Shown here: positions 24,050 through 36,305 of the stretch, piece by piece | How positions within the stretch are numbered: the stretch's first letter is position 1 | How the letters are laid out: each line of letters opens with the position of its first letter | Origin: Thysanoteuthis rhombus | Lineage: Eukaryota > Mollusca > Cephalopoda > Oegopsida > Thysanoteuthidae | Direction of reading: 5' to 3' | Assembly: GCA_963457665.1 (NCBI GenBank) | Contig: OY735237.1 | Coordinates: forward strand, 1,216,001-1,280,000 | DNA length: 64,000 bases | Notes under the pieces: model-generated | Database searches by the model: none | Seen by the model: only the letters and a program-made list of their open reading frames with translations | Told to the model about the DNA's origin: nothing | Translations under genes and position numbers: made by a program

Positions 24050-24250
24050 AACAAACACATCGATATCTATGCTGATAATGTCTTGTATGGATGAATTCAA
24101 TCCTGGATTCGATCCCAGCTGAAATCAGGGAGTCAGTCACAATGCCAACAATCTATACATTATCTATGCAGATATCAACAAGAAAGAAAAATTGAGAGAA
24201 AAAAAAAAGAATGGCTTCAAATGGTCCGAATCAATTTGTTATGAATGGGA
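24050..24250 (+). pseudogene. broken copy of the receptor tail exon, 5' portion
   Basis: This segment aligns with 49988-50125 in exon 6 of the receptor gene. Both have GATATATATGCTGATAATGTCTT-type sequence (here with ATATC), then CGATCCCAGCTGAA, GAGTCAGTCA and AAGAAAGAAA. The copy reads [11 protein letters not shown] and then hits TGA where the gene has lysine. An insertion near 24150 shifts the frame further. Homology starts around 24050 with no splice acceptor, membrane exon or ectodomain before it, so only the tail exon (or part of it) was duplicated. The array begins directly after it. Confidence 0.82.
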
Positions 24251-27200
24251 ACACTTCTCAAAGAGAGGGGATGCAAACCATGTTGCAGTGAATGAAATCC
24301 GTTCAAAGGGTTCGAAATCATGTTGTAGTAAACGGGGACTCAGCTCTGAGGGTACCTAAATCATGTTATAGTGAATGTAGACTCTGCTCAAAATGGGCCT
24401 AAGTAATGTAATAGTAGTGAATGGAGACTCTGCTGGATGGGGCCGAAATCATGTTGTAGTGAATAGATACTCTGCTCAAGGGGACCCAAATAATGTTGTA
24501 GTGAATGGAGACTCTTTTTTGGGGGGAGGGATCCAAATCATGTTGTACTTGATGGAAACTGCTCAAGGGGGCCCAAATCATATTGCAGTAAATGGAAACT
24601 CTTTTTTTGGGAGGGGGGTCAAAATCACGTTGTAGTGAATAGACACCCCGTTCAAGTGGCCCCTAATCATGTTGTAGTGAATGGAGACTCTGCTCGAAGG
24701 GGGCTTAATTATGTTGTAGTGAATGGAGACTTTGTCCACAGTGTGTGTATGTGGGGGGGGGAACTGAAATAATGTTGTAGAAGTGAATGGAGACTCTGCA
24801 CAAAAGGGCCCTAATCATGTACTGAATGGAGACTCTGCTAAAGTGGGGCCTAATCATGTTGTAGTAGTGAATGGACACTCTGCTTGAGGGGGCCCAAATC
24901 ATGTTGTAGTAGTGAATGAAGACTGCTTGAGGGGGCCCAAATCATGTTGTAGTGAATGGAGACTCTGCTAGAGGGGGCCCAAATCATGTTGTAGCAGTGA
25001 ATGGAGACTCTGCTCGAGGGGGGCTCAATTATGTTGTAGTGAATGGAAACTTTGTCCACAGTGTGTGTGTGTGTGGGGGGGGGAACTGAAATATTGTTGT
25101 AGTAATGAATAGAGACTCTGCTTCATGAGGGCCTAAATCATGATGTAGTAGTGAATGGAGACTCTGCAATAAAGGGCCCTAATCGTGTACTGAATGGAGA
25201 CTCTGCTCAAATAAGGCCTAAATCATGTTGTAGTAATGAATGGAGACTCTGCACAAAGGGGCCCTAATCATGTACTGAATGGAGACTCTGCTCGTAGGGG
25301 CCCAAATCATGTTGCACTGAATGGAGACTCTGCTCCAGGGAGGCGTAAATTAAGTTGTTGCAGTGAATGGTGACTCTACACAAAGGGGCCCTAATTATGT
25401 GGTGATTTGAGACTCTGCTCGAAGGGAGCACAAATTATGTGCTAGTGAATGGAGACCCTGCTTAGAGCATGCCTAAATCATGTTGTAGTGAACAGACACT
25501 CTGTCTGGATGGACCACGTACATGATGTATAAATGGAGACTCTGCTCGAAGGGAACACAAATCATGTGGTAGTGAATGGAGACCCTGCTCAGAGCATGCC
25601 TAAATCATGTTGTAGTGAACGGAGACTCTGTCTAGACGGACCCAGAACATGATGTATGAATGGAGACTCTGCTCGAAGGGAGCACAAATCATGTGGTACT
25701 GAATGGAGACCCTGCTCAGAGCGTGCCTAAATCATGTTGTAGTGAACGGACACTCTGTCTGGATGGACCAAGAACATGATGTATAAATGGAAACTCTTCT
25801 CAAAGGGAGCACTAATCATGTGGTAGTGAATGGAGACCCTGCTCAGAGCGTGCCTAAATCATGTTGTAGTGAACGGAGACTGTCTGGATGGACCCAGAAC
25901 ATAATGTATGAATGGAGACTCAGCACGAAGGGAGAAAATATCATGTGGTAATGAATGGAAACCCTGCTCAGAGCGTGCCTAAATCCTGTTGTAGTGAACG
26001 GACACTCTGTCTGGATGGACCATGAACATGATGTATGAATGGAGACTCTGCTCGAAGGGAGCACAACTCATGTGGTAGTGAATGGAGACCCTGCTCAGAG
26101 CGCGCCTAAATCATGTTGAAGTGGACGGACCCTCTGTCTGGATGGACCCAGAACATGATGTATGAATGGAGACTCTGCTCGAAGGGAGCCCAAATCATGT
26201 CGTAGTGAATAAAGACCCTGCTCAGAGCGTGCCTAAATCCTGTTGTAGTGAACGGACACTCTGTCTGGATGGACCCTGAACATGATGTATGAATGGAGAC
26301 TCTGCACGAAGGGAGCACAAATCATGTGGTAGTGAATAGAGACCCTGCTCAGAGCATGCCTAAATCATGTTGTAGTGAACAGAGACTCTGTCTGGATGGA
26401 CCCAGAACATGATGTTTGAATGGATACTCTGCACGAAGGGAGAACATATCATGAGGTAGTGAATGGAGACCCTGCTCAGAGCGTGCCTAAATCATGTTGT
26501 AGTGAACGGTCACTCCGTCTGGATGGACCCAGAACATGATGTATGAATGGGAACTCTGCACAAAGGGAGCACAAATCATGTTGAAGCGAACGGAGAATCT
26601 TTCTGGATGGACCCAGAATGTGATGTATAAATGGAGACTCTGCTCGAAGGGAGCACAAATTAAGTGGTAGTGAATGGAGACCCTGCTCAGAGCGTGCCTA
26701 AATCATGTTGTAGTGAACAGAGACTCTGTCTGGATGGACCAAGAACATGATGTTTGAATGGAAACTCTGCACGAAGGGAGAACAAATCATGTGAAAGTGA
26801 ATGGAGACCCTGCTCAGAGCGTGCCTAAATCATGTTGTAGTGAACAGACACTCCGTCTGGATGGACCAAAAACATGATGTATGAATGAAAACTCTGCTCG
26901 AAGGGAGCAAAAATCATGTGGTAGTGAATGGAGACCCTGCTCAGAGCGTGCCTAAATCATGTTGTAGTGAATGGAGACTCTGTCTGGATTGACCAAGAAC
27001 ATGATGTTTGAATGGAAACTCTGCACGAAGGGAGCACAAATTATGTGGTAGTGAATGGAAACCCTGCTCAGAGCGTGCTTAAACCATGTTGTAGTGAACG
27101 GAGACTCTCTCTGGATGGACCCAGAACGTGATGTATGAATGGAAAATCTGCACAAAGGGAGCACAAATCATGTGGTAGTGAACGGAAACCCTGCTCAGAG

Positions 27201-36150: not shown

Positions 36151-36305
36151 CCCAAATCATATCGTAGTGAATGCTGATCCATCTGCAATGGTCAATAAGG
36201 AAGTAGGATCAATTCCTGCCAATTCTCGTCTTCGTGATGATTTGATCCGAGAAGAGATGAATGAGAAAATTTACACGTTGGTCAAATAGTGAATGGACAA
36301 ATAAA
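36150..36305 (+). pseudogene. broken copy of the receptor tail exon, 3' portion with stop codon
   Basis: Right after the last repeat unit, the plus-strand frame reads VVNADPSAMVNKEVG, then IPANSRLRDDLIREE, then MNEKIYTLVK and TAG. It aligns with exon 6 residues 338-379, including GATGATTTGATCCGAGAAGA and the sequence just past the stop (GTGAATGGACAAAT). Two of the three tyrosines here are lost: VYAVV is PSAMV and IYANS is IPANS. The final IYTLV is kept. Homology fades after about 36305. Confidence 0.85.

Follow-up and report, generated by a model that had tools for sequence, protein, structure and literature searches.

How does a tract of satellite DNA of about 12 kb come to stand between the two halves of an exon? 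The question is raised by a 64,000-bp stretch of the genome of the cephalopod Thysanoteuthis rhombus, hereafter the window (positions 1,216,001 to 1,280,000 of contig OY735237.1, here called C42, in the assembly GCA_963457665.1). An earlier note on this DNA had proposed that the tail exon of a receptor gene was copied upstream and that its three coding repeats expanded to about 280. The history put forward below has more steps, and taken as a whole we consider it probable: a fragment of the exon would have been copied, its repeat multiplied, a trimer of that repeat amplified, the surrounding block duplicated in inverted orientation, and the array in the duplicate collapsed.

An array between two halves of one exon

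The array and its immediate surroundings comprise the following elements:

24047..24221, + strand: left half of the pseudo-exon (the fragment copied from the terminal exon), with the IDIYADNV motif retained, then an in-frame TGA and indels
24222..25432, + strand: older part of the array, irregular, with 29 units (39-47 bp in 25 cases)
25433..36154, + strand: higher-order part of the array, 78 trimers (123-128 bp) and ten two-unit pieces
36155..36176, + strand: last partial 42-bp unit, leading into the right exon half
36177..36379, + strand: right half of the copied exon fragment, with the tail coding end, a stop one codon early and 87 bp of 3' UTR

Wraparound alignment to one 42-bp unit divides 24222-36176 (11,955 bp in this one assembly) into 284 units of ~42 bp, with a mean identity of 0.81 to that unit. 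The array was also called by TRF, whose reported periods include 42, 127, 254 and 381. Its head-to-tail units lie within the range of 10-100 bp that defines the unit of a minisatellite or satellite. In the higher-order part all 254 units are accounted for by the 78 trimers and ten dimers; the trimer (~127 bp) consists of units of 43, 42 and 42 bp, and 63 of the 78 copies are exactly 127 bp long. Across the window array, unit identity is higher at a lag of three (0.853) than at a lag of one (0.689), i.e. the array is a higher-order repeat, a regular multimer in which the in-register copies are more alike. It is also without coding constraint: the three forward frames, which are the ones counted, are filled with stops (229, 254 and 254, with a longest open stretch of 92 codons), and the reading frame shifts at every trimer, whose 127 bp do not make up a whole number of codons.

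The mean difference between two copies of the trimer is 11.9%, that between a copy and the consensus 7.2%, and these differences show little order along the array. The spread of the pairwise values (0.0264) equals that obtained after shuffling of columns (0.0264, 100 shuffles), and adjacent trimers differ by 0.116 vs 0.119 for random ones, a value as low being found in 9.4% of 2000 permutations. For sites within 5 bp of each other the association (r2) is 0.054; at distances of 50-80 bp it is 0.020, and at 80-128 bp 0.027, compared to ~0.013 expected from sample size. This apparent fall with distance is slight and does not continue at 80-128 bp. Ten pairs of trimers are less than 3% different, in groups 7.6, 1.6, 1.0 and 0.25-0.4 kb apart. 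The trimer array is thus well mixed and close to linkage equilibrium, a state that takes time to build. Short conversion-like exchanges accompanied by occasional longer copies would yield such a pattern, to which recurrent mutation may have contributed in some measure. The divergence among trimers was also considered as the age of a single burst, a use that was dropped since the copies are well mixed.

The two flanks of the array are related to one exon, located further downstream in the window. BLASTN aligned 24054-24294 with 49980-50198 (69% over 242 columns, E 1e-22) and 36118-36308 with 50142-50333 (82% over 192, E 2e-50). The relationship does not depend on the repeats themselves: the pre-repeat part of the left flank alone scores 112 vs a maximum of 35 in 1000 shuffles, and the post-repeat part of the right flank alone 143 vs a maximum of 32. 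The position of the array between two halves of one exon, as claimed in the earlier note, is thereby confirmed. So is the presence of the stop codon and the beginning of the 3' UTR in the right flank. With a second copy of the gene, described below as the twin gene, as the reference, the limits of the fragment could be recognised at 24047 and 36379: it is ~444 bp long, begins 133 bp downstream of the splice site of the exon and ends 87 bp beyond the stop, and its left half, which contains indels, matches weakly in places. Hence the suggested upstream copying of the tail exon applies to a fragment and not to the whole exon. The right half of the fragment now lies 14 kb from the source-type exon, in identical orientation.

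The exon in question is the last of six in a gene model obtained by a simple splice-site scan, with consistent phases throughout; the model is a prediction from the sequence:

39710..39770, + strand: predicted exon 1, signal-peptide-like, with a phase-1 donor
42386..42544, + strand: predicted exon 2, ectodomain, phase 1-1
43145..43411, + strand: predicted exon 3, ectodomain, phase 1-1, donor uncertain (43390, 43411 or 43432)
44937..45017, + strand: predicted exon 4, stalk, phase 1-1
49053..49125, + strand: predicted exon 5, single transmembrane helix
49840..50317, + strand: predicted exon 6 with the cytoplasmic tail and the stop codon; the copied fragment is its paralogue
50119..50202, + strand: coding repeat of the tail exon, a full unit with a partial one on either side

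The working exon therefore carries one full unit between two partial ones, and not the three units that had been counted in it. The claim that the array unit is read in the frame of the exon repeat needs qualification: the 14-residue peptide given in the earlier note is the consensus of the early units, and the trimer region changes frame and is full of stops. Several tyrosine motifs, which we take to be of the YxxV/L kind, can be read from the sequence of the predicted tail. Database searches with the tail protein gave no homologue at E<=0.001 among 18 candidates and no Pfam family above its cut-off. For the joined protein, none of 1323 word-sharing candidates reached E<=0.1, and of the ten Pfam families found at E<=10 none was above its cut-off. 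The one match to a solved structure in the PDB covers a transmembrane segment (E 0.59), and the Pfam and PDB resemblances of the predicted protein are in general weak and mostly of the transmembrane type. The name 'receptor' is accordingly a prediction; the signal peptide, the single transmembrane helix and the tail that would mark a type I membrane receptor are putative features of the model. A degenerate tandem repeat of 16-17 bp occupies 40847-41079, between predicted exons 1 and 2, and another tandem array, with a 21-bp unit, covers 60689-64000 and reaches the right end of the window.

The inverted twin block and the order of events

When the window's own assembly (2.73 Gb, 514 contigs; the window corresponds to C42:1216001-1280000) was searched with the tail protein, two of the four places identified were the exon and the right pseudo-exon half; the other two form a like pair at C42 655-672 kb, on the opposite strand. 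The second pair belongs to an inverted twin of the whole region, a block of at least 90 kb on the same contig, and the two arrays are ~0.57 Mb apart. On the side of the window the block spans at least C42:1176001-1266333, with a BLAST identity of 97.8-97.9% in its left part and mostly 93-99% elsewhere (87% in one stretch). Homology between the blocks stops at 50333 of the window, while the 3' UTR of the twin gene continues to match the right flank of the array. Position 50333 is 16 bp past the stop codon of the gene, and the window copy may carry a new 3' UTR.

The array of the twin block comprises 1,259 bp and 31 units, vs 11,955 bp and 284 units in the window array, both lengths being taken from one assembly. 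Besides units that match those of the old part, it has a single a-b-c trimer, of 126 bp, at its right edge. TRF finds in its right half ~4 copies of a weak 127-bp period (71% matches), among which only one a-b-c trimer was classed. Such a short array in the twin locus speaks against the idea that the array simply grew in size. The notion that coding repeats became a satellite stands as far as their multiplication is concerned, not as a simple step from 3 to 280; multiplication of the 42-bp unit was probably followed by amplification of the ~127-bp trimer.

Several other differences between the blocks were observed. A 25-bp satellite (1-18064 of the window together with C42:1192653-1216000) takes up ~41 kb in the window copy vs 9.2 kb in the twin, and a second 25-bp array 1.3 kb vs 0.3 kb, so that three arrays (two of 25 bp, one of 42 bp) are longer in the window copy. 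The 210-bp stretch directly to the left of the pseudo-exon (23701-23910) is inverted with respect to the twin, at 99% identity. In the twin, one intron of the predicted gene contains ~3 tandem copies of a stretch of ~2 kb (55679-61811 of the reverse complement, C42 664.3-658.2 kb). At 43573-44558 the window contains a fragment of a retrotransposon with similarity to reverse transcriptase and a TGA-type repeat at its end, which was probably inserted after the block duplication, because the corresponding site in the twin is empty; the reading frame 43569-44225 is a reverse transcriptase above the Pfam cut-off, the only one of this kind among the other scanned frames of the window. A search with this reverse transcriptase produced 392 hits; among the 120 of them listed, the few that bear a name come mostly from assorted animals, and two have bacterial labels.

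The two copies of the gene (39710-50317 in the window vs C42 ~669-655 kb on the minus strand) differ at 65/1108 exon positions. This exceeds the difference found in four mostly non-coding segments of the blocks (51/2588, 37/2327, 120/4178 and 27/1368, in total 235/10461 or ~2%, with four exons, some of them the same ones, included; Fisher p 2e-10). The estimates for the twin genes are dN 0.068 and dS 0.035 (54.5 vs 8.5 changes), with p 0.061, which is not significant alone. Together, the excess of exon differences and the dN/dS ratio suggest that the two copies may have been subject to diversifying selection. In the tail exon of the twin gene (C42:655496-655981, minus strand) a TAG ahead of the regular stop would cost the protein its final 16 residues, and with them the last tyrosine motif.

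The order of events was approached by comparing divergence at different places of the blocks. Between the twins, the old part of the array differs at 21/513 positions, ten pairs of old-part units chosen by best match at 17/413, and the unit pairs at the edges of the arrays at 6/123 (left) and 8/144 (right). Paired array units thus differ by 4.1-5.6%, about twice the divergence of the flanks. As the trimers differ among themselves by 11.9%, compared with only 4-6% for the paired units, their amplification probably predates the duplication of the block, and the twin probably lost its array. The favoured order is accordingly copying of the exon, amplification of the trimer, duplication of the block and loss of all trimers but one from the twin. 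This order leans on a substitution clock that is strained. The 3' UTR of the fragment differs from that of the twin gene at 10/87 (window copy) or 12/87 (twin copy) positions, i.e. more than the twin blocks differ from each other, albeit with a wide interval of 5.7-20%; the coding parts differ from the twin gene by 19-23%. The distance between fragment and gene, taken from the 11-14% of the 3' UTR, comes to ~6-7% per lineage, and the trimers stand at 7.2% from their consensus. Equal rates would give the trimers the same age as the fragment, and it follows that the array must evolve faster. In addition, the stretch left-adjacent to the array differs between twin and window at only 1/303 positions, and conversion between the blocks may have reset the divergence of the flanks.

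The same figures bear on growth confined to the window, in which the block would have been duplicated with a short array containing one trimer, and this trimer amplified later in the window copy. Structurally, the single trimer of the twin could represent either the state before expansion or what is left of an array after collapse. In favour of late growth, this trimer is flanked by units that pair with both edges of the trimer region of the window; no large loss is required, and the two 25-bp arrays of the block are likewise longer in the window copy. Against this, the 11.9% between trimers (7.2% to consensus) would have had to accumulate while the blocks diverged by ~2% and the paired units by 4-6%, which needs a several-fold higher substitution rate in the array, and we therefore regard late growth in the window as doubtful. 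Collapse of the twin array remains the preferred direction.

Origin of the copied fragment

How the exon fragment arrived upstream is a separate matter. Its end lies 3.3 kb before the signal-peptide exon, in the same orientation as the gene, an arrangement like that of a tandem gene pair, and this could mean that a whole head-to-tail paralogue was once present upstream, of which the pseudo-exon is the last remnant, the rest having been lost or replaced. Such a history would concern the origin of the fragment only and is compatible with the other readings of the locus. A dispersed repeat with reverse-transcriptase-like reading frames fills part of 19-21 kb, which would favour this history. The homology, however, ends inside the exon, and blastn detected no exon of the gene in 18.1-24.1 kb. 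The tblastn matches among those listed are weak, the best being a 15-residue match to the signal peptide at 19743-19787 with E 0.019. Beyond the exon fragment no homology was found above the level of 200 shuffles, on the right (20 vs a maximum of 31) or on the left (24 vs maxima of 29 and 30). We consider a lost upstream paralogue unlikely.

A 5'-truncated processed pseudogene, formed from the reverse-transcribed end of an mRNA, would agree with the confinement of the fragment to the terminal exon and with the truncation of its 5' side, and the loss of introns carries no information here, the fragment being derived from a single exon. The usual marks of a processed pseudogene are a poly(A) tract and a target-site duplication; the inspected sequence after the right end of the fragment contains no poly(A), and the two ends of the fragment have no direct repeat of >=6 bp in common. 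This origin thus appears improbable.

The window is rich in tandem arrays, and one may ask whether some older satellite or transposon entered the exon as well as the upstream site, but all 51 genome matches of the unit pattern described next lie in the two arrays or the window exon, and exon-type flanks match strongly at four places in the genome, which makes an invasion highly improbable. The pattern is a 23-bp core of the unit, searched in the whole assembly with <=2 mismatches; the window array accounts for 37 of its matches, the twin array for 13 and the window exon for the remaining one, while the reversed control pattern gave none. It catches 37 of the 284 window units and 13 of the 31 twin units, and a strongly diverged array elsewhere may escape it. 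The right flank gave 39 matches in the genome. The four with E below 1e-20 are the two array flanks and the two gene exons; the other 35 are short and weak (best E 8.5e-11), and 33 of them map to query positions 490-595 and seem to represent a common repeat. A DNA query of two trimers gave eight matches in all, six of them to the twin array and the other two to the exons, one apiece; this search skips very common words, which is probably why the window array itself was missed. With near-matches confined to two regions of one contig, and not spread as arrays over many loci, the possibility of a dispersed satellite, raised in the earlier note as a check on its own proposal, was rejected.

Our preferred reading is that of copying at the level of DNA, followed by expansion in place. 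A piece of the terminal exon of ~444 bp, containing part of the tail, the coding repeat, the stop and some 3' UTR, would have been copied upstream in the same orientation and would no longer have made protein. Freed of coding constraint, its ~2 repeat units may have multiplied into ~30 irregular units via slippage or unequal exchange, and an exchange between units three apart could have created the ~127-bp trimer. The trimer would then have been amplified to ~80 copies, which were presumably scrambled by short conversion-like exchanges and by a few copying events of greater length inside the array. The next step would have been the duplication, in inverted orientation, of a block of at least 90 kb with both the array and the gene, and afterwards the twin array most likely collapsed to one trimer.

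Relation to known repeat systems

The origins of satellites are usually hard to trace, as the sequence from which they arose has been lost. At this locus, an exon of the source type, the halves of the pseudo-exon, a state with a single trimer and a state with ~80 copies all survive in one genome, with near-matches at two loci only. We incline, with some reserve, to the view that this one genome keeps a full life history of a satellite, from a coding repeat in a pseudo-exon through a higher-order unit, its ~80-fold amplification and an approach to linkage equilibrium to the collapse of the twin with its edges intact. The locus permits direct tests of how coding repeats turn into a satellite once translation stops, of the origin of higher-order units and of the loss of arrays. 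The coding minisatellite, the pseudo-exon and the higher-order repeat are each of a known kind; in the part of the literature covered by a narrow search, we found no case in which they are combined in one traceable series.

Coding minisatellites or intragenic VNTRs, such as the tandem repeats of mucins, consist of in-frame exon units of tens of bp, the number of which changes by slippage or exchange, and the repeat of the tail exon resembles them in both respects. It differs from them in that the long array resides in a non-coding copy of the exon, whereas the living exon keeps ~2 units. In the D4Z4 macrosatellite, as far as the sources seen in part describe it, the unit of a tandem array likewise derives from a gene copy, the DUX4 retrogene. 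The D4Z4 unit holds the whole retrogene and has about 3.3 kb, whereas here a 42-bp coding repeat within a pseudo-exon was expanded and the exon halves persist as flanks. Duplicated (unprocessed) pseudogene fragments are truncated copies with in-frame stops and no poly(A), and the copied fragment shares all these features, except that the repeat inside it has expanded until the array is nearly 30 times as long as the fragment. Finally, in the higher-order repeats of alpha satellite, monomers of the same length are grouped in a multimer, which is then amplified, and the window array shows the same organisation. Unlike alpha satellite, it is represented by two loci on one contig, with a trimer of ~127 bp whose copies are near linkage equilibrium, neighbours being hardly more alike than distant copies.
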